From: Acinetobacter zhairuonensis
GTDB taxonomy: Bacteria; Pseudomonadota; Gammaproteobacteria; Pseudomonadales; Moraxellaceae
Assembly (NCBI RefSeq): GCF_022601715.1
Contig: NZ_JAKVIM010000006.1
Coordinates: 62,001 to 126,000, forward strand
Direction: 5' to 3'
Length of the DNA stretch: 64,000 bases
The translations under genes and the position numbers were made by a program. This document shows positions 7,252 to 28,295 of this stretch, piece after piece. Below the pieces are notes generated by a model. That model worked only from the letters and a program-made list of their open reading frames with translations, made no database searches and had not been told where the DNA came from. How positions within the stretch are numbered: the first letter of the stretch is position 1; each line of letters opens with the position of its first letter.

Positions 7252-7859
7252 CGACACCTTATCCTGAGACTGATCTTGTCATCCTCGCTGGAGGACAGGC
7301 TCGACGTATGAATGGGATGAATAAACTTTTACAAACCTTTGATGATCAAATTCAGCTGTTAAAAATTCATCAAAGCTTGAAACATCAAGTGAATAGCATC
7401 TGGGTGAATAGTCATCGCGACTATTCGCTTTACCGCAAAATGGTTCCAAGTATTGCTTATTATCAAGATGAAGAGTCTGGTTTTTTAGGTCCACTCATGG
7501 GCATGAAAAGTGCTTGGAAACATGTCTTGGCAGACTATGTCCTGTTTGTACCTTGTGATGTGACCTATATTCCATCACGAGTCATTGAAAAGCTGCATGC
7601 AGCACTGGCAAAAAATACTCTTGCTGAAGTGGCTTTTGTCGAAATGAATGGTCGAGCGCTGTATCCCTTCTGCTTGCTCAAACGTAGTGCATTAGCACAG
7701 CTAAATCGACAAATTGATCTAAAACAGTTCAGTTTGAGGCAATGTTTTGCAGAAATGCACCCTCAAGTCGCACGCTTTAGTAATAAAAATCTATTTTTTC
7801 ACAGTATTAACTCACTGGATGAACTCCAGCAGTATCAACAATTAAAACTTCTTAGCTAA
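7248..7859 (+). CDS. mobA: Molybdenum cofactor guanylyltransferase
   Basis: Adds GMP to molybdopterin to form the MGD cofactor that nasA needs. The nucleotidyltransferase signature LAGGQARRMNGMNK starts near residue 12, and a DVTYI-type Asp motif lies near residue 100. Length is 203 aa, usual for MobA. I place the start at the ATG overlapping the nasA stop (ATGA), because GGAGG at 7236-7240 sits 7 bases upstream; an in-frame TTG at 7227 is less likely. Translational coupling to nasA ties cofactor maturation to production of the enzyme. Homology around the G-loop is clear; the C-terminal half is more divergent. Confidence 0.92.
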   Translation: MTTPYPETDLVILAGGQARRMNGMNKLLQTFDDQIQLLKIHQSLKHQVNSIWVNSHRDYSLYRKMVPSIAYYQDEESGFLGPLMGMKSAWKHVLADYVLFVPCDVTYIPSRVIEKLHAALAKNTLAEVAFVEMNGRALYPFCLLKRSALAQLNRQIDLKQFSLRQCFAEMHPQVARFSNKNLFFHSINSLDELQQYQQLKLLS

Positions 7860-7988: not shown

Positions 7989-9005
7989 ATGACAGTATTT
8001 ATGACAGAAAGCGCTGCTGCGTTTACCGATCAATTTGGTCGCAGCAAGCGTAAACTTCGAATTTCAGTGACGGATCGCTGTAATTTTAAGTGTGTCTATT
8101 GCATGCCAGAACATCCTGAATGGATGAAGAAACATCAGATTTTAAGTTTTGAAGCCTTGTTTCAGTTTTGCCAATTTATGGTGCAGCGTGGCATTCAACA
8201 TATCCGCATTACTGGCGGAGAACCATTAATGCGTCAAGGTGTGGTTCATTTTATTGCGGAATTACAACAACTGCGAAAGCTTGGACTTCAGCAAATTTCC
8301 ATGACCACGAATGGTCACTACTTAAAAAAATATGCGCAAGAACTCAAGTTTGCGGGATTAGACAATATCAATGTCAGTCTCGACAGCGTCGATGCAGCAG
8401 GGTTCTACCAACTCACCCAAAAACAGCTCGCGCCCGTGCTGGAGGGAATTCAAGCTGCTTTAGTTGTGGGGCTGCCATTAAAAATTAACAGTGTGCTCAT
8501 TCAAGGACAAAATCACGAGCAAATCATTCCCTTGGTGCAATGGGCAAAAAACCTTGGTGTTCCACTGCGTTTTATTGAGTTTATGCCTTTGGATGGTGAC
8601 CGTCATTGGACCACAGCACATGTGGTCAGTGAACAGCAGATACTGGATACGCTTGCATCGAAATTTAATGTTCAAGCCATCCACGAGCGGTCCAGAAGTC
8701 CAGCAAGACAGTATTTGGTCGATGAACATCCCATTGGCATTATTTCTACAATTACCCATGCCTTCTGTGGTGAATGTGACCGTGTTCGATTGACCGCGCA
8801 AGGTGAGTTTTATAACTGTTTATTTGCAACACAAGGTTTGGCTATAAAAACTGATATAGAACAGCTACAAACCAATCAAGACGTGTTGCCCAATGATTTG
8901 GAGCAAAAGCTGGAAGCCTATATCTGGAATAAGAAAGCAGGATTTCATGCCATACAGGCACAACAGACTCACAGAAAAATTAGTATGCATATGATCGGAG
9001 GTTAG
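7989..9005 (+). CDS. moaA: GTP 3',8-cyclase, radical SAM
   Basis: First step of molybdopterin synthesis: with SAM it converts GTP to 3',8-cyclo-GTP. The N-terminal radical SAM cluster is C31-x3-C35-x2-C38 (DRCNFKCVYC), and the C-terminal second [4Fe-4S] site is CGEC...NC (Cys-x2-Cys-x13-Cys). The protein ends in Gly-Gly, as MoaA does. Start is uncertain: ATG at 7989, ATG at 8001 and GTG at 7926 are all in frame, and none has a strong ribosome site; 7989 gives a typical length of 338 aa. moaD follows after one base, with its ribosome site inside the moaA end. Confidence 0.95.
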   Translation: MTVFMTESAAAFTDQFGRSKRKLRISVTDRCNFKCVYCMPEHPEWMKKHQILSFEALFQFCQFMVQRGIQHIRITGGEPLMRQGVVHFIAELQQLRKLGLQQISMTTNGHYLKKYAQELKFAGLDNINVSLDSVDAAGFYQLTQKQLAPVLEGIQAALVVGLPLKINSVLIQGQNHEQIIPLVQWAKNLGVPLRFIEFMPLDGDRHWTTAHVVSEQQILDTLASKFNVQAIHERSRSPARQYLVDEHPIGIISTITHAFCGECDRVRLTAQGEFYNCLFATQGLAIKTDIEQLQTNQDVLPNDLEQKLEAYIWNKKAGFHAIQAQQTHRKISMHMIGG

Positions 9006-9006
9006 T

Positions 9007-9270
9007 ATGATGCAAGCCAGTTCAACCATCCAAATTCAAATTGAAGCCTACGGTGCAGTTGAAAAATTACTTCCATCCAATTTGGTGATTCAGACGCCCT
9101 TACATAGTGATATTGGCGCAGTGTTAACTCAACTCGCCGAATTATATCCTGAAGCTAAAACTCTGATTGAACGCTGTGCCTGTGCTATTGGTGAAGATAT
9201 TGTAGCGCGTCATACCACCATTCAGCAGGCAATGACTTTGGTGCTGCTATCACCTGTAGCGGGAGGTTAA
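9007..9270 (+). CDS. moaD: Molybdopterin synthase sulfur-carrier subunit
   Basis: A small ubiquitin-like protein (87 aa) that carries sulfur as a C-terminal thiocarboxylate to cyclic pyranopterin. It ends in the required Gly-Gly (SPVAGG). GGAGG at 8997-9001 precedes two adjacent ATG codons (9007 and 9010); either could be used. It is followed 3 bases later by its partner moaE. The adenylating enzyme MoeB, needed to activate the C-terminus, is not encoded in this window and must lie elsewhere. Confidence 0.93.
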   Translation: MMQASSTIQIQIEAYGAVEKLLPSNLVIQTPLHSDIGAVLTQLAELYPEAKTLIERCACAIGEDIVARHTTIQQAMTLVLLSPVAGG

Positions 9271-9273
9271 GCG

Positions 9274-9792
9274 ATGAGCTTAAAGAACTTTCCACGTGTG
9301 CAATCTACTGCACTCGACCAAGCCAATTTTGATGGTATACAGTATTTCCCCGAGTGTGGCGGAATTGGCATCTTCATTGGCACAGTACGTAATCATCACG
9401 AAGGTAAAGCCGTCAAAGCCTTGAAATATACGGCTTATGCACCTGTAGCTGAAAAAATGATTCGAGCCATCGAGCAAGAAATCCAAGCCAAATATCAGGT
9501 TTCCTATGTCAGAGTGGTTCACCGCATTGGTGCTTTACATATTGGTGATACCGCGATTATTGCCATGGCTTATGCAGCACATCGCCGAGAAGCTTTTCAA
9601 GCGTGTGAAGAAGCAGTTGAACGGGTCAAACATGAAGTACCTGTATGGAAAGAAGAATTTTATGCAGATGGTAGCAGTCAATATGTAGAAGGCTGCTGTA
9701 TTCGTAAAGACCATGATTATGTGGCAAAAACATCTGATCATTCGCATCACCATGACTGTCAGCATCATCATACGCAATCAGTAGCCGTATAA
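9274..9792 (+). CDS. moaE: Molybdopterin synthase catalytic subunit with His-rich tail
   Basis: Partner of MoaD; transfers two sulfur atoms to precursor Z to form molybdopterin. The core is recognisable from the segment FIGTVRNHHEGK near residue 35, the YTAYAP-type region near 55, the HRIG motif near 90 and KEEFYADG near 125. At 172 aa it is longer than the usual 140-155 aa because of a C-terminal extension, about residues 150-170, rich in His (HSHHHDCQHHH). The tail resembles metal-binding His stretches; whether it has a function is unknown. The next gene begins 24 bases downstream. Confidence 0.94.
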   Translation: MSLKNFPRVQSTALDQANFDGIQYFPECGGIGIFIGTVRNHHEGKAVKALKYTAYAPVAEKMIRAIEQEIQAKYQVSYVRVVHRIGALHIGDTAIIAMAYAAHRREAFQACEEAVERVKHEVPVWKEEFYADGSSQYVEGCCIRKDHDYVAKTSDHSHHHDCQHHHTQSVAV

Positions 9793-9816: not shown

Positions 9817-10740
9817 ATGAAAAATGTAGGCATGAAAGCCGAAAGTTATCGAACAGCCGTGGCAACAGGCATTTTACATGCGCCTGCTCATTGCATTGAA
9901 TTACTGCGTAATGGCAATACCGAAAAGGGCGATGCACTGAAAACGGCTCGTATTGCGGGCATTATGGCTGCAAAACGGACCGATGAACTGATTCCTTTGT
10001 GCCATCCTTTACCAATTTACCGTGCAGATGTGGAATATGAACTGTTTGAGCAACATGTCCTGATCACCGCCACTGTAGAAACCATTGGACCTACAGGGGT
10101 AGAAATGGAGGCATTAACTGCTGTTAGTTTGGCAGGTTTAACTTTATATGACATGCTCAAACCACATTGTGAACCTGAAGACTTGTGCTTAGATCAGTGT
10201 AAATTGGCACAAAAAAAAGGCGGGAAATCGCACTATACTCGTGCTTTAAAAGATGCCATTCCAGCATCCATCATTGTACTTTCCGATACAGTAGCAGCAG
10301 GGAAGAAGCCTGATACTGCGGGATTGAATGTACTCGATATTTTAAAAGAGGCAAATTTTAAAGATATTGCTTATCAAGTCATTCCTGATAGTCCTGAACA
10401 GTTATTGGCATTAATCGAACAACAGAAAAATTATTATCCACTGATTTTGACAGTTGGCGGAACGGGGCTTGGACCCAAAGATCTGACTGTAGAAACCTTA
10501 CAACCCTTGATAAAACGTGAAATTCCAGGACTGATGGAAGCATCCAGAAGTTTTGGACAAAAACGCACACCCTATGCGGCATTGAGCCGTGGTGTTGCGG
10601 GTTATATTGATCAGAGTTTGGTGATTACCTTACCGGGAAGCCGTCAAGGAGCAAAAGAGTCACTGATTGCGATTCAACCCGCATTAATCCATCTTTTTGA
10701 TGTCCAAAAAAATATTCCGCATGCTGGAGGATACCAATAA
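9817..10740 (+). CDS. moaCB: MoaC-MoaB fusion: cyclic pyranopterin synthase plus molybdopterin adenylyltransferase-type domain
   Basis: Two cofactor-synthesis enzymes in one 307-residue chain. Residues 1 to about 150 are MoaC, with its active-site segment KRTDELIPLCHPLP near residue 54, which rearranges cyclo-GTP into cyclic pyranopterin monophosphate. From about residue 155 to the end is a MoaB/MogA domain with the TVGGTGLGPKDLT motif near 210, which adenylates molybdopterin before metal insertion. The fusion is known from other proteobacteria as a bifunctional MoaCB. The TAA stop shares its last A with the moeA ATG, so translation is coupled. Confidence 0.93.
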   Translation: MKNVGMKAESYRTAVATGILHAPAHCIELLRNGNTEKGDALKTARIAGIMAAKRTDELIPLCHPLPIYRADVEYELFEQHVLITATVETIGPTGVEMEALTAVSLAGLTLYDMLKPHCEPEDLCLDQCKLAQKKGGKSHYTRALKDAIPASIIVLSDTVAAGKKPDTAGLNVLDILKEANFKDIAYQVIPDSPEQLLALIEQQKNYYPLILTVGGTGLGPKDLTVETLQPLIKREIPGLMEASRSFGQKRTPYAALSRGVAGYIDQSLVITLPGSRQGAKESLIAIQPALIHLFDVQKNIPHAGGYQ

Positions 10741-11966
10741 TGTCAGGATGTGGTGCAGAAAAAGGCTTGATCAGTGTTGACCAAGCTTTGGCGAAGATAA
10801 TTGAAACTGTAAAGCCTTTGGCGAGTGATAAAATTTCGCTACAACACGCACTACATCACTATCTGACAACTGACATTTATTCTGAAATAGATTTGCCCTT
10901 GTTTAGCCAAAGCGCTGTTGATGGTTATGCGCTATGTAGCCATGAACCTATCTTAGCTGATGCACAATTTGAATTGGTGGGTGAAATACGTGCAGGACAA
11001 GACCAGAACACACAACTAGCACAAGGGCAGGCATTGCGTATTTTTACGGGTGCCAAAACTCCTGAAGGAACAACCACTGTTGCACGACAAGAAATCGTGA
11101 CGGTTTTAGGGTCAAATCAAATCCAGATCGAATCAAATTTGGCAGCCCATGCAGATATTCGAGATGTCGGTGAAGAACTGTGTAAAGGACAACTGTTGGC
11201 AAATAAAGGGCAGCATTTAACTGTTGGTGCAATCGCAGCACTCAGTATGGCTGGTGTTTCAGAGGTCGAAGTTTACCGTTATCCACGTGTAGCTGTAGTC
11301 ATTACAGGCGACGAAGTTGCTCAAAATTTAGATGATTTTGCAGCAGGCATGATTTTCGATGCCAATGCACCACTCATACAGGCATGGTTTGCAGAACGTC
11401 AACAACAGGTTCAAATTTTCCATGTAGCCGACACAGAGTCTGCTGTGGTACAACTCATTCAACAATTAAAATATGAATATGATGTGATTCTGACAACGGG
11501 TGGAGTCTCGGTCGGGGATTATGACTTTGTCCGCCCTGTTGCTTTAGCTCAAGGTTTTCAGCAAATCTTCTGGAAGGTCAAACAAAAACCTGGCAAGCCG
11601 ATGTTATTTGCTGAATTTCAACGTTCACCTGAAGAATCTTGTTATCTGTTAGGACTTCCGGGTAATCCTGCCGCGGTATTTGTTGGTATGCAGGTTTATA
11701 CCTCAATATTGCTTCAGGCACTGCAAGGTCAAGCACAGTTACCGAATTGGTTTACAGCGACACTGACTCAACCCATGAAAAGTGATGCCAGAGAGCGCTT
11801 TTTAAGAATGTATGCACATTTTGAGCAAGGGCAGTTAAGTGTCAAAAATCTATCGAAACAACAATCGCATATGTTAAGTAATTTGATGCAGGCCAATTGT
11901 TTGGTACGTATCCCTGATAATCAGGTACTGGAAGAGGGTTCTGTTATACAAGGACTCTTTATTTAA
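10740..11966 (+). CDS. moeA: Molybdopterin molybdotransferase
   Basis: Inserts molybdate into adenylated molybdopterin. The 408-aa protein shows the MoeA order: N-terminal domain with the conserved FSQSAVDGYAL motif near residue 57, the MPT-binding domain with TTGGVSVGDYDF near 256 and GLPGNPAAVF near 307, then the C-terminal barrel. Its start overlaps the end of moaCB by one base. Together with mobA, moaA, moaD, moaE and moaCB this nearly completes the pathway; only moeB-type activation of MoaD is missing locally. Confidence 0.95.
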   Translation: MSGCGAEKGLISVDQALAKIIETVKPLASDKISLQHALHHYLTTDIYSEIDLPLFSQSAVDGYALCSHEPILADAQFELVGEIRAGQDQNTQLAQGQALRIFTGAKTPEGTTTVARQEIVTVLGSNQIQIESNLAAHADIRDVGEELCKGQLLANKGQHLTVGAIAALSMAGVSEVEVYRYPRVAVVITGDEVAQNLDDFAAGMIFDANAPLIQAWFAERQQQVQIFHVADTESAVVQLIQQLKYEYDVILTTGGVSVGDYDFVRPVALAQGFQQIFWKVKQKPGKPMLFAEFQRSPEESCYLLGLPGNPAAVFVGMQVYTSILLQALQGQAQLPNWFTATLTQPMKSDARERFLRMYAHFEQGQLSVKNLSKQQSHMLSNLMQANCLVRIPDNQVLEEGSVIQGLFI

Positions 11967-12009
11967 AACGGGATCTGTTATTTGGAGTAGGGTTAAACAT
12001 GGTGAGGAA

Positions 12010-12774
12010 ATGAAAGTTGTAAATGCAGTCATGCTTGGAATCACAACACTTTTGACAGCAACGGTACAAGCTGGAACTGTAAAAGTCTATGCGGCTGCAA
12101 GCTTAAGCAATGCCTTAACCGACATTTCAAAACTCTACCAAACGCAATATCCTCAAACTAAGGTTGTTCCTGTTTTTGCCGCATCATCGGCTTTAGCCAA
12201 ACAGATCGAAGCGGGTGCCACTAGTGATATTTATTTTTCTGCTGACTTCGACTGGATGGATTATTTGGTTAAAAAGAAGAAAATCAACCGTATGCAGGTA
12301 CAACCCTTTTTATTAAATCAATTGGTTGTAGTAAGCCCAATTCAAATGAATATTCCATTTCAAGCCAAACCACAATTTAATTTTGCAGGCTCATTTCAGG
12401 GACATCTGTGTACAGGTCAAATGGAATCTGTACCGGCAGGGAAATATGCCAAACAAAGTTTGATTAAACTGGGCTGGCTGGATGATTTAAAAGGCAGAAT
12501 CGTGGGAACGGATGATGTCCGTGCAACACTGGCTTTTGTAGAGCGCGGAGAATGTTCCGTGGGAATTGTCTACAAGACCGATGCCTTAATCAGTCAAAAA
12601 GTCAAAATCATCGGAACTTTTTCAGCGAATACCCATCAGCCGATTATCTATCCAATGGCTTTAACGCTACAAGGGATGAGCAATAAAGAGGCGATACAGT
12701 TTGAACGCTATGTGCGTACAAACAGCAAAGCTAAACAGGTTTTTCAACGTTATGGTTTTGTGTTGAAGCAATAG
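12010..12774 (+). CDS. modA: Molybdate ABC transporter, periplasmic binding protein
   Basis: Captures molybdate in the periplasm for ModBC. Residues 1-21 form a signal peptide ending in VQAG, followed by the ModA opening VYAAASLSNALTDI and the ASSALAKQIEAGA region that forms the oxyanion site. Length (254 aa) is normal. GTGAGG lies just before the ATG. The gene is 43 bases after moeA and 10 bases before modB. I looked for a ModE operator between moeA and modA and found none that I trust, so regulation is probably with the upstream cluster. Confidence 0.94.
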   Translation: MKVVNAVMLGITTLLTATVQAGTVKVYAAASLSNALTDISKLYQTQYPQTKVVPVFAASSALAKQIEAGATSDIYFSADFDWMDYLVKKKKINRMQVQPFLLNQLVVVSPIQMNIPFQAKPQFNFAGSFQGHLCTGQMESVPAGKYAKQSLIKLGWLDDLKGRIVGTDDVRATLAFVERGECSVGIVYKTDALISQKVKIIGTFSANTHQPIIYPMALTLQGMSNKEAIQFERYVRTNSKAKQVFQRYGFVLKQ

Positions 12775-12784
12775 GACAAACGCT

Positions 12785-13468
12785 ATGTTAAGTCCAGAAG
12801 AACTCAGTGCATTATACCTCTCGGCTAAAGTGGCACTGTTTGCTACAGTCATGAGCTTGCCATTCGCAATTGCTCTGGCATGGGTACTGGCACGTTACGA
12901 GTTCCGACTTAAATTCTTAGTCGAAGCTGTTTTACAAATGCCTATGGTATTACCCCCAGTCGTTTTGGGCTATTTACTGTTGGTACTATTTGGTCAGCAG
13001 GGTTGGATTGGACGTTATTTGAATCAACTTGGAATACAGGTCGCGTTTAATTGGAAAGGGGCTGTCCTCGCATCTATGATTGTCGCATTTCCGCTGATGG
13101 TGCAGCCAATCCGATTGTCTTTTCAACTGATTAACCAACAATTGGAACACGTCGCAGCTACCTTAGGTGCAAACCCAATTCGGGTGTTTTGCAGTATCAG
13201 TTTGCCACTGGCAATTCCTGGCATCATCATTGGGAGTATTTTGTGCTTTAGCAGAAGCTTGGGGGAATTTGGCGCGACTATCACCTTTGTTGGAAATATT
13301 CCTGATGAAACCCGTACCGTCCCCATCGCCATTTACTCCTTTCTACAGCAACCAAATGGCGAAGAGATGGCGATGCGTCTGGTAATGTTATCGCTGTTAC
13401 TGGCGTTTGGTGCTTTAATTGCGAATTATGTCATTTTACAGAAGTACCAAAAGCGACTTGGGGGTTAG
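12785..13468 (+). CDS. modB: Molybdate ABC transporter permease
   Basis: Inner-membrane channel of the molybdate importer, 227 aa with about five hydrophobic helices. The segment EHVAATLGANPIRVF near residue 119 is the ABC-permease EAA loop that contacts the ATPase. The C-terminal region with SLGEFGATITFVGN is typical of ModB. modC begins 3 bases after its stop, so the two are translationally linked. Confidence 0.94.
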   Translation: MLSPEELSALYLSAKVALFATVMSLPFAIALAWVLARYEFRLKFLVEAVLQMPMVLPPVVLGYLLLVLFGQQGWIGRYLNQLGIQVAFNWKGAVLASMIVAFPLMVQPIRLSFQLINQQLEHVAATLGANPIRVFCSISLPLAIPGIIIGSILCFSRSLGEFGATITFVGNIPDETRTVPIAIYSFLQQPNGEEMAMRLVMLSLLLAFGALIANYVILQKYQKRLGG

Positions 13469-25774: not shown

Positions 25775-26195
25775 GTTTGTATTTCCTTGCGGCAAGTAAT
25801 GAGTTCTAACTTTCACCTTAACAAAATTTTCTAAATGATTTCGACAATTTTGTAATATATATCAGTCTAATGATTCACTTTAACCGAAGAAATACTTTCC
25901 GTTTTCATTTTGCACGACCTTTTTAATATTGCTGAAAAATCAATAACTACTTGGACATCTATTCTTACTTCATCTGGACATTTTTTTCTGTTTTAGGGTC
26001 AAATGAGACTAGATAAAACCGTGGAACATGAAAAGTGTATAAAAAAGCCCTATCGGAATAGATTGGGCTTAATTAAATGCTATAAATAACTGATTTACAA
26101 CAATATAAATTAAGAATTACGTATAACGTGCATTATGTTAATTTTAGGAAAACTTTCAAATAGACATACTCGGATATAAACAAATTCTTTAACTA
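25775..26195. other. Non-coding gap upstream of the sulfatase, part 1, with a bidirectional hairpin
   Basis: No convincing gene. It must hold the rhodanese promoter on the minus strand. At 26045-26070 there is a 10-bp stem AAGCCCTATC/GATTGGGCTT with one mismatch and a 6-base loop. On the minus strand it ends in six T residues and so looks like an intrinsic terminator, although no minus-strand gene lies upstream of it. TGGACA motifs occur at 25952-25957 and 25975-25980. Confidence 0.5.
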
Positions 26196-26230
26196 TTGAT
26201 TAAGAAAAATATCTACGCTATTTTCAAGTG

Positions 26231-26290
26231 ATGAAGCAAATAGAGTTAAATCTATTGGGAAAGGCTTGGTATTATGTCAGGCCTTTTTTT
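26231..26290 (+). ncRNA. Candidate small RNA (about 60 nt) or sulfatase leader
   Basis: A promoter-like pair TTGATT (26196-26201), 17-base spacer and TATTTT (26219-26224) is followed by a hairpin AATAGA-N6-TCTATT (26239-26256) and then by an intrinsic terminator: 9-bp stem 26260-26268/26278-26286 with seven T residues at 26284-26290. The sulfatase ATG is 182 bases further on. It could be a free small RNA or an attenuated leader of the sulfatase. No homology could be checked. Confidence 0.4.
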
Positions 26291-26472
26291 ATTTGTTATA
26301 AAGAAAACATACCAACCTACTTTCAGCCTATTTTTTTATTTTCTAATATGCTGTATTTTTAGACTAAATCCAAAAGTGTTCTACAAACACTACCTCGAAT
26401 AACTATAGTCATTTTTAATTACAGAAAATCAGAAATTAAGAGCTTTATAAAAATCAACACTGGAGAATATCT

Positions 26473-28008
26473 ATGCGGAAAAGTCTAATAGCACGTTCCA
26501 TCGCCTTAGTTGGTGGGGCGTTGATCTCGGCAACAACATTCGCAAAGCAACCCAACGTTTTAATCATTTGGGGTGATGATGTCGGGATGTGGAACTTAAG
26601 CACCTATCACCGTGGCATGATGGGTGGTACTACTCCAAATATTGATCGAATTGCCAAAGAAGGCATGACCTTTATGGATCACTACGCTCAAGCATCTTCG
26701 ACTGCTGGTCGTGCTGCATTCATTACGGGTCAGTATCCAATGCGTACTGGGTTAAGTACGGTTGGTCTGCCTGGAGCAGAACAAGGCTTAAAAGCTAAAG
26801 ATCCCACCCTTGCTGAGATGTTAAAAGCAAAAGGCTATATTACGGGTCAATTTGGTAAAAACCATTTGGGCGACCGAGATGAGCACTTACCTACTGCACA
26901 TGGTTTTGATGAGTTCTACGGGATTCTCTACCACCTCAATGCAGGTGAATATGGCGAGCAGCAAGATTATCCAAAAGATGAAGCCACACAAGAGAAACTA
27001 GGTTTAAAAATGCGTGGTGTTATTCACTCAAAAGCGCTCGGCAATGGTAAACAACAAATTGAAGACCTAGGTCCATTCGGTGAAGAACGTCAACGTAATT
27101 TAGACGAAGAAGTTCTACAGCAATCTAAGCGCTTTATTACAGATGCGGTTAAACAAGACAAGCCCTTCTTTGTTTGGCATAACATGACCCGTACCCATTA
27201 TAAAACCAACCTGAATAAGCACTATGATGGCAAAACAGGATATGGCATTTATGCTGATGGTGTCGCTGAAATGGATGATGATGTTGGCGAACTCTTAAAG
27301 CTACTTGATGATATGAAAGTAAGTGGCGATACCATTGTAGTGTTCTCTACGGATAATGGTGCTGCATCCAACTCTTGGCCAGATGGCGGTAATCAGCCAT
27401 TCCATGGGGAGAAAGGCGTTGGTGGTTGGGAAGGTGGATTCCGAGTTCCTTTAGTTGTTAAGTGGCCTGGTCATATTCCAGCAAATACAACAACGGGGGA
27501 ATTTATGACCATGGAAGATTGGATGCCAACAATCATGTCATGGGTTGGAGAGAAAACACTAAAAGAAGACCTGTTAAAAGGAAAGCGGATTGGGGGTAAA
27601 AATTATAAAGTTCACTTAGACGGCTATGATCAAAGTGATATTTTATTAAACCAAGGCAAGACCAAACGTAAAGACTTCTACTACTTTACAGAAACAACCT
27701 TCCATGGCATGCGTTATGGTGATTGGAAATTACTGTTTACAAAACAAGATGGTTGGTTCCGTTCAACACAAGAAACGCTCACAAGTCCATATATCATCAA
27801 CTTAAAAATGGACCCATTTGAACGCTTTACCGAAGCACGTGGATATGATGAGTGGTCAGAGAACCGCAGTTGGATTTTAGGTCCAGCAGGTCAGCAAATT
27901 GGTCAATTCATCAGTACATTTAAAGATTTCCCGCCAAGTCAAAAGAGCATGTCTGTTCAAGTTGATAACGTTGCAAGTCTGATTGAAAACCAATCTTCAA
28001 ACCGCTAA
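26473..28008 (+). CDS. Periplasmic sulfatase family protein, Ser-type active site
   Basis: A 511-aa member of the alkaline-phosphatase/sulfatase superfamily. Residues 1-24 are a signal peptide ending TTFAK. The metal-binding start PNVLIIWGDDVG (about 27-38) and TPNIDRIAKEG follow, then the catalytic loop S76-T-A-G-R80 with AAFITGQYP, and later FSTDNGA near 293 and the HGEKG region near 310. In sulfatases the first residue of C/S-x-P/A-x-R becomes formylglycine; here it is Ser, as in anaerobic-type Ser sulfatases such as Klebsiella AtsA. No anSME (AtsB-like radical SAM) gene is next to it. The substrate, an aryl or alkyl sulfate or a phosphonate ester, is not determined. Confidence 0.88.
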   Translation: MRKSLIARSIALVGGALISATTFAKQPNVLIIWGDDVGMWNLSTYHRGMMGGTTPNIDRIAKEGMTFMDHYAQASSTAGRAAFITGQYPMRTGLSTVGLPGAEQGLKAKDPTLAEMLKAKGYITGQFGKNHLGDRDEHLPTAHGFDEFYGILYHLNAGEYGEQQDYPKDEATQEKLGLKMRGVIHSKALGNGKQQIEDLGPFGEERQRNLDEEVLQQSKRFITDAVKQDKPFFVWHNMTRTHYKTNLNKHYDGKTGYGIYADGVAEMDDDVGELLKLLDDMKVSGDTIVVFSTDNGAASNSWPDGGNQPFHGEKGVGGWEGGFRVPLVVKWPGHIPANTTTGEFMTMEDWMPTIMSWVGEKTLKEDLLKGKRIGGKNYKVHLDGYDQSDILLNQGKTKRKDFYYFTETTFHGMRYGDWKLLFTKQDGWFRSTQETLTSPYIINLKMDPFERFTEARGYDEWSENRSWILGPAGQQIGQFISTFKDFPPSQKSMSVQVDNVASLIENQSSNR

Positions 28009-28033
28009 TTGATACACGAAATTTTTCTAGGTT

Positions 28034-28054
28034 AGCCCTTACTTGTTAAGGGCT
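28034..28054 (+). terminator. Intrinsic terminator of the sulfatase gene
   Basis: An 8-bp stem AGCCCTTA/TAAGGGCT with a 5-base loop, followed by TTCTTAT, 26 bases after the sulfatase stop. Confidence 0.75.
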
Positions 28055-28295
28055 TTCTTATATTTTCAAAGTATTTAACATAAAGGCCATTATACGAAAT
28101 CAAAATGTTAGAAACCATTTAAAGTGTCCAAGTTAGATACGACTCTCTGTTCATTTGTTTGTGAGATTTGGTGTCCATTAGAATAAGAATATGCAATATT
28201 GCATTAAGTACATCAATCAATAGTTTCCGAATGTGCTTTTAAAAGCATCCAAAGCTTAGCTTCATAATAGGATATTTAAAAAAGATATTGAAAAA

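Follow-up and report, generated by a model that had tools for sequence, protein, structure and literature searches.

The gene analysed here lies on the plus strand of contig C33, within the window (the whole 64,000-nucleotide stretch of DNA), and encodes a 511-residue protein. The product matched the sulfatase domain PF00884 at 171.1 bits against a curated cut-off of 25, which places it in the S1 family, and its best PDB match was 7aj0 (E 5.4e-54). Human arylsulfatase A aligned with it at E 1.8e-47, and this alignment puts S76 in the formylglycine loop. The features of the locus are listed below; the active-site and metal-ligand residues other than those of the loop were assigned from the arylsulfatase A alignment and were invariant in an alignment of six Acinetobacter sequences.

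26116-26143, minus strand: pdif-like XerC/XerD site of 28 bp upstream of the gene, 2 mismatches
26473-28008, plus strand: S1-family sulfatase gene, Ser-type, 511 aa (open reading frame, PF00884, and PDB matches)
26473-26556, plus strand: signal-peptide region, codons 1-28, 96% identical to the STAGR sulfatase G065A
26575-26580, plus strand: Asp35-Asp36, metal-ligand pair
26695-26712, plus strand: S-S-T-A-G-R loop, S75-S76-T77-A78-G79-R80, read as TCT TCG ACT GCT GGT CGT
26698-26700, plus strand: Ser76 (TCG), formylglycine position by the arylsulfatase A alignment
26857-26865, plus strand: Lys129 and His131 (G-K-N-H), active-site residues
27196-27198, plus strand: His242, active-site residue
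27352-27357, plus strand: Asp294-Asn295 (T-D-N-G), metal ligands
27412-27414, plus strand: Lys314, active-site residue
28073-28100, plus strand: pdif-like XerC/XerD site of 28 bp downstream of the gene, in inverse orientation, 0 mismatches

The catalytic and metal-binding set was complete in the window protein (D35, D36, R80, K129, H131, H242, D294, N295, and K314), R80 of the loop being likewise invariant in the Acinetobacter alignment. By eye, the motif A-S-S-T-A-G-R-A-A-F-I-T-G fits the updated sulfatase catalytic pattern with [CS]-x-[PA]-x-R printed in the excerpted part of PMC5066984. The best explanation is that the gene encodes a predicted exported S1 (formylglycine) sulfatase. It does not belong to the Cys-type, FGE-matured enzymes, having Ser76 at the modified position, although the rest of its clade has Cys there.

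An earlier note on this DNA had placed a Ser at the formylglycine position 76, and both the TCG codon and the arylsulfatase A alignment confirmed this. The note had also named a sequencing error, TCG for TGC, as what could overturn its reading. Plasmid p1 of A. tandoii SE63 (CP041366.1, 11,449 bp) has the same gene with 510 of 511 residues identical; its coding sequence departs from that in the window at 11 bases, which alter residue 290 alone, and its codon 76 is likewise TCG. Since this independent copy keeps TCG while differing at 11 other bases, Ser76 is not a base-calling slip, and a sequencing error was ruled out. The S-T-A-G-R motif recurs in two paralogues of the same genome, where the Ser is specified by TCT and TCA.

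The two inverse 28-bp XerC/XerD sites that flank the gene form the arrangement of a pdif module, and the window contained these 2 pdif-like sites against a mean of 0.00 over 100 shuffles. On plasmid p1, the gene is likewise flanked by two inverse pdif sites, and the module there is 97-99% identical (98.7% DNA identity over window positions 26148-28098). The sulfatase gene is the cargo of a module of roughly 2 kb (26116-28100) on C33 and on p1, and we regard it as a pdif module with putative XerCD-dependent movement. Judging from its gene content, C33 is probably chromosomal; the best matches of the neighbouring genes in the window were Acinetobacter records. Chromosomal dif modules of Acinetobacter that match plasmid ones, with cargo including resistance and toxin-antitoxin genes and others, are described in the excerpted part of PMC12907356. 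The module resembles these in its inverse site pair and its occurrence on a plasmid, and differs in carrying a sulfatase. None of the papers searched combined pdif, Acinetobacter, and sulfatase.

Relatives of the window protein and the origin of its parts

Among the 80 best named relatives of the window protein, 79 had Cys at the formylglycine position, so that the earlier note's statement that Cys is usual there holds for the relatives. Cys was found in all of the 23 closest loci (61-82% identity), which are CTAGR arylsulfatases of Pseudoalteromonas, Shewanella, Marinobacter, Thalassospira, and others. The lone Ser relative was that of Vibrio owensii (L134), where an anSME gene stands directly downstream of the sulfatase gene (match positions 11677-12819 and 10001-11458, respectively). 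One Cys relative (L114) also had an anSME gene nearby.

In a 90-row tree, built by the 'quick' method without bootstrap, with the signal peptide excluded and the variable residue masked, the window protein fell into a clade with the 23 Cys rows (support 100), and the seven Acinetobacter STAGR paralogues formed another clade. This tree requires 4 changes between Cys and Ser; therefore, the change at the formylglycine position happened more than once. On the window branch it is apparently recent. Of 175 Acinetobacter genomes, only the window's own had a window-type orthologue, the next best match being 48% identical, which fits a recent arrival of the gene.

The N-terminus has a different affinity from the rest of the protein. 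Beyond their 96% identity to G065A, residues 1-28 were 61-68% identical to the other four Acinetobacter STAGR sulfatases compared, and 14-32% identical to the seven Cys-type orthologues with an aligned N-terminus (the start of an eighth, L097, was cut short in the analysis script); the CTAGR enzymes thus differ from the window protein in these seven signal peptides as well as in their Cys. By contrast, identity to the Cys orthologues versus the paralogues was 62-88% versus 53-57% over residues 141-180, and 70-93% versus 25-33% over residues 381-420. At the DNA level, codons 1-28 shared 66 of 84 positions with G065A, 55 and 53 with the two paralogues of the own genome, and 23-32 with four Cys-type orthologues. 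Since only 13 of the 30 bases before the start codon were shared with G065A, the borrowed part starts at or near the start codon. The window protein is thus a chimera at the sequence level, in which the mature domain of the Cys clade is joined to the signal peptide of an Acinetobacter Ser-type sulfatase. The Klebsiella maturase depends on the signal peptide of the sulfatase that it modifies.

The residues on either side of Ser76 (29-75 and 77-100) were 80-100% identical to the Cys clade versus 59-79% to the paralogues, with the exception of L097, with its shortened start, at 56% over residues 29-60. A long recombination tract from the paralogues as the source of Ser76 is unsupported, these flanks following the Cys clade; a very short tract is possible. 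Because Ser76 sits in sequence like that of the Cys clade, the exchange of the signal peptide and the change from Cys to Ser look like separate events.

The anSME gene in the window's own genome

The earlier note had held that a Ser would call for the radical-SAM maturase anSME and that none was nearby. The second point was correct: searches of the whole genome placed the FGE-domain genes on C21 and C7 and the anSME pieces on C5 and C15, with none elsewhere. With the anSME family profile, the own genome gave a single partial match (145 bits, cut-off 349) at the very end of C5. A second search used as query the complete Acinetobacter anSME from G066, which scores 477 bits on TIGR03942 (cut-off 349) and matches PDB 4k36, which we take to be the anSME of Clostridium perfringens, at E 3.2e-60. 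It located residues 1-126 at C5:133789-134166 (95% identity to the G066 anSME), where the contig ends at 134168, and residues 398-420 at C15:1-69 (91% identity). The middle 271 codons (residues 127-397) were not found in the assembly, which is 99.95% complete. The radical-SAM Cx3Cx2C motif is present in the C5 piece as CNLDCSYC; the SPASM domain with the auxiliary-cluster Cys is present in the G066 anSME, and its counterpart falls in the assembly gap. The own genome yielded one N-terminus and one C-terminus only and no second anSME copy, which leaves a second copy as the cause of the gap unsupported.

On C15, a STAGR sulfatase gene starts at base 197, just downstream of the C-terminal anSME piece. 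The same gene order is seen in relatives: a complete anSME gene stands directly upstream of a STAGR sulfatase gene, in the same direction, in G066 and G065, and match positions place an anSME directly upstream of a sulfatase twice in G165. Additionally, one contig of G033 (L080) carries sequence bordering both contig ends: positions 8470-10780 of L039 (C5) match L080 2292-4586, and C15 922-5984 matches L080 5901-10964. Since this contig and the gene order of the relatives span both borders, C5 and C15 are very likely neighbours, with the anSME gene lying across the gap; on our reading, the gene would be whole in the chromosome. The absence of a maturase from the genome was rejected in that form, both ends of the anSME gene being present. 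Thus, of the three alternatives in the earlier note, a maturase elsewhere in the genome is favoured, with both gene ends on other contigs, although the middle was not found; the other two, activity without formylglycine and an inactive enzyme, have less support.

The genome search that the note had proposed located not only the split anSME gene but also an FGE gene (L001). Its product, in which both catalytic Cys residues are present, matched FGEs of known structure at E 2.5e-55, and the gene stands beside the one Cys-type sulfatase gene of the genome. By sequence, the own genome holds both predicted maturation systems, each adjoining a sulfatase gene with the fitting residue.

On the own C5, L039 9950-11033 is the remnant of an AslA-type sulfatase gene beside anSME, with the N- and C-terminal parts kept and the catalytic middle gone. 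In G033 (G033:C1, L080 2292-10964), a deletion took out anSME together with the N-terminal region of the adjoining STAGR sulfatase. G065 has two anSME copies (L074 and L075), each upstream of one STAGR sulfatase, and the second breaks at contig ends.

The anSME gene might be broken in the window strain itself, for example by an insertion with local deletion, which would leave its Ser-type sulfatases unmodified and idle or decaying. The missing middle of the gene in so complete an assembly, the AslA-type remnant in the same locus, and the loss in G033 of anSME together with part of its sulfatases favour such a break. However, both anSME pieces lie at contig ends, as an assembly gap would give, and the second G065 copy breaks in the same way. 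Moreover, the window sulfatase keeps its full reading frame and all catalytic residues, and the 11 base differences of the p1 copy change just 1 residue. We therefore regard a broken anSME gene as unlikely.

Ser, Cys, and maturases in Acinetobacter and beyond

The survey of the genus covered 175 congeneric genomes including the own one (G000), with anSME counted at E <= 1e-10 and window-family sulfatases at E <= 1e-40. anSME was found in seven of them: G000 (split), G041, G051, G065, G066, G127, and G165; G172, with a weak partial match (52 bits, 30% over 142 residues), was left off this list. In an earlier run of 149 genomes, TIGR03942 was matched, mostly weakly, in 62, and over the cut-off in only 5. 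Window-family sulfatases were also found in 7 of the 175 genomes (G000, G033, G065, G066, G127, G135, and G165). In all five genomes on both lists, the sulfatase had Ser. G135 has a Cys (CTPTR) sulfatase and no anSME. G033, in which no anSME was found either, retains only the C-terminal part of the STAGR gene, with the motif lost; it keeps an SSPSR motif in a broken AslA-type gene, which runs against the association of Ser with anSME. Of the two anSME genomes outside the sulfatase list, G041 has an 802-aa SSPTR sulfatase and G051 a truncated STAGR gene.

The formylglycine motif was read in eight genomes, the seven with anSME and G033, for 31 of their 35 PF00884 rows; one further row (G065:C15:7421), read separately, was Ser, and the rows G127:C1, G065:C10, and G066:C7:2859037 were left out. 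The motif was present in 18 of the 31 genes, 15 with Ser and 3 with Cys, and 13 genes lacked it. Two of the 15 Ser-type genes are broken or truncated (L192 of G033 and L199 of G051), and intact Ser-type sulfatases occurred only alongside anSME in these eight Acinetobacter genomes. For all three Cys-type genes (one in G000 and two in G127), an FGE gene with the catalytic Cys pair stood next to the sulfatase gene or some 5 kb from it on its contig. The FGE search within the genus covered the seven anSME genomes, with G033 left out; an FGE with the catalytic Cys pair was found in G000 and G127 only, and G051 had a short FGE piece with stops. In a family of AslA-like sulfatases of 800 aa (L188, L189, L190, and L194), the residue was Ser in G041, G065, and G066, and Cys in G127, with an FGE on the same contig.

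The earlier note's claim that Ser calls for anSME was thus borne out by co-occurrence, with the broken gene of G033 as the exception. These sequence comparisons suggest that Ser points to anSME, while anSME does not seem to require Ser, because L114 combines anSME with Cys, G127 has anSME together with both Ser- and Cys-type sulfatases, anSMEs also accept Cys according to the excerpted part of a review (PMC3920027), and, in the excerpted part of PMC8068374, a CTAGR tag is reported to be a substrate of a Methanosarcina AtsB.

The co-occurrence also bears on whether the window enzyme could work without formylglycine, with Ser76 as a weak nucleophile or in the role of a phosphatase or phosphodiesterase. 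Unmodified enzymes of the alkaline phosphatase superfamily can use Ser or Thr, which speaks for such activity, as does an excerpt of PMC8379841 that offers formylglycine-free activity as one hypothesis for a Ser-type sulfatase. Nevertheless, the window protein has retained the residues by which arylsulfatase A holds and activates its formylglycine, and Ser accompanies anSME across genomes, exceptions aside. Activity without formylglycine is very improbable on this evidence.

Outside the genus, we searched 18 genomes (G175-G192, behind L083-L103) of the 23 closest Cys loci, leaving out L093, L096, L101, L104, and L105. No anSME over the cut-off (349) was found in any of the 18, as against the anSME pieces of the window genome, and the Vibrio genome with the Ser relative had four over the cut-off. 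In one of the 18 (G192), the anSME model was matched twice over nearly its full length, at about 150 bits and so under 349. In 8 of the 18 genomes, several of these assemblies being drafts or metagenome bins, neither an anSME over the cut-off nor an FGE with the catalytic Cys pair, defined by a motif pattern of our own, was found. The 26 PF03781 places in seven of these eight genomes all lacked the Cys-pair motif. The eight genomes are a lead either for a third maturation route or for genes missed in, or missing from, drafts.

A search among the open reading frames of the 23 closest loci for a conserved neighbour as a new maturase of the Cys clade gave nothing convincing. The commonest neighbour match was a single L087 frame (position 7821), found at 22 loci. 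This frame probably encodes a further sulfatase, because L087 was matched a third time by a sulfatase at 8065-9375. On p1, a DUF1254 gene adjoins the sulfatase gene; it was weakly matched at 6 of the 80 loci.

A third route, neither FGE nor anSME, might modify Ser76 and perhaps the CTAGR relatives too. The eight genomes in which neither known maturase was recognised favour it, but the draft or metagenomic state of several assemblies and our own motif pattern count on the other side, and the window genome has at least part of an anSME gene that could serve the Ser version. We consider this the least probable of the explanations, with hardly any likelihood.

Proposed maturation and history of the sulfatase

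The reading that joins these observations is that a Cys-type sulfatase was acquired and came to depend on the resident anSME, which would modify it in trans; from the sequence comparisons, we consider this quite probable. The pre-protein would be made in the cytoplasm, where the anSME-type radical-SAM maturase encoded across the end of C5 and the start of C15 would oxidise Ser76 to formylglycine before export. It would act in trans on the three STAGR sulfatases of the genome, and the FGE would serve the adjoining Cys-type sulfatase. The exported enzyme, presumed active, would hydrolyse sulfate esters, perhaps for sulfur supply. An anSME serving several sulfatases is known from Bacteroides thetaiotaomicron, as cited in the excerpted part of PMC6388578. 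On the other hand, the excerpt of PMC8379841 reports activity in E. coli of a Ser-type sulfatase for which no partner maturase was evident, which counts against this joint reading.

As for its history, the window gene would descend from the widespread CTAGR clade and would have reached Acinetobacter as a pdif-flanked module or become one later; it would have gained the signal peptide of an Acinetobacter Ser-type sulfatase and changed from Cys to Ser at position 76, in an order that we can only propose. More tentatively, and with somewhat less than an even chance, these changes amount to a recent switch of maturation system, in which the enzyme, now travelling as a pdif module, became a client of anSME in two separate steps, by taking over the signal peptide of a resident client and by exchanging Cys76 for Ser. 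The need for Cys76 to become Ser in such a switch is weakened by the reported acceptance of Cys by anSMEs (excerpt of PMC3920027).

Genomes that combine a Ser-type sulfatase with an anSME are already known. In the Klebsiella AtsA/AtsB system, covered in part by an excerpt of the review PMC3920027, a Ser-type sulfatase with a signal peptide is likewise combined with a maturase of the anSME family, and the sulfatase and maturase genes are adjacent in Acinetobacter G065, G066, and G165. Unlike in that system, the gene of the window sulfatase is remote from that of the maturase, which would also serve two paralogues. The motifs also differ, being S-T-A-G-R in the window protein. That of Klebsiella AtsA is S-x-P-x-R. 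Less expected are a Ser version within an otherwise Cys clade, the borrowed signal peptide, and a genus described as strictly aerobic. None of the papers searched paired Acinetobacter with 'anaerobic sulfatase maturase'. anSME-like genes also occur on plasmids of Paraburkholderia and other genera, which are aerobic. Acinetobacter is described as strictly aerobic in the excerpted part of PMC2265553, which sets it apart from the source of 4k36, as does the incomplete state of the window genome's anSME in the assembly. According to the excerpted part of PMC5066984, a survey of 2016, Ser-containing sulfatases are excluded from strictly aerobic prokaryotes. The Ser-type genomes of Acinetobacter contradict this exclusion as a rule, and because of the plasmid-borne anSME-like genes, the rule, as that excerpt gives it, is probably too strict in general.

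The module further suggests that pdif modules are able to carry a sulfatase, beyond the cargo described in the excerpt of PMC12907356. The window protein and its closest Cys relatives offer a natural Ser/Cys pair of nearly the same mature enzyme (82% identity), in which the features that commit a sulfatase to anSME or to a different maturase could be examined. If the switch of maturation system is true, the signal peptide would be part of the address that the maturase reads, and the residue at the formylglycine position would be set by adaptation to the host's maturase and not by the family to which the enzyme belongs.
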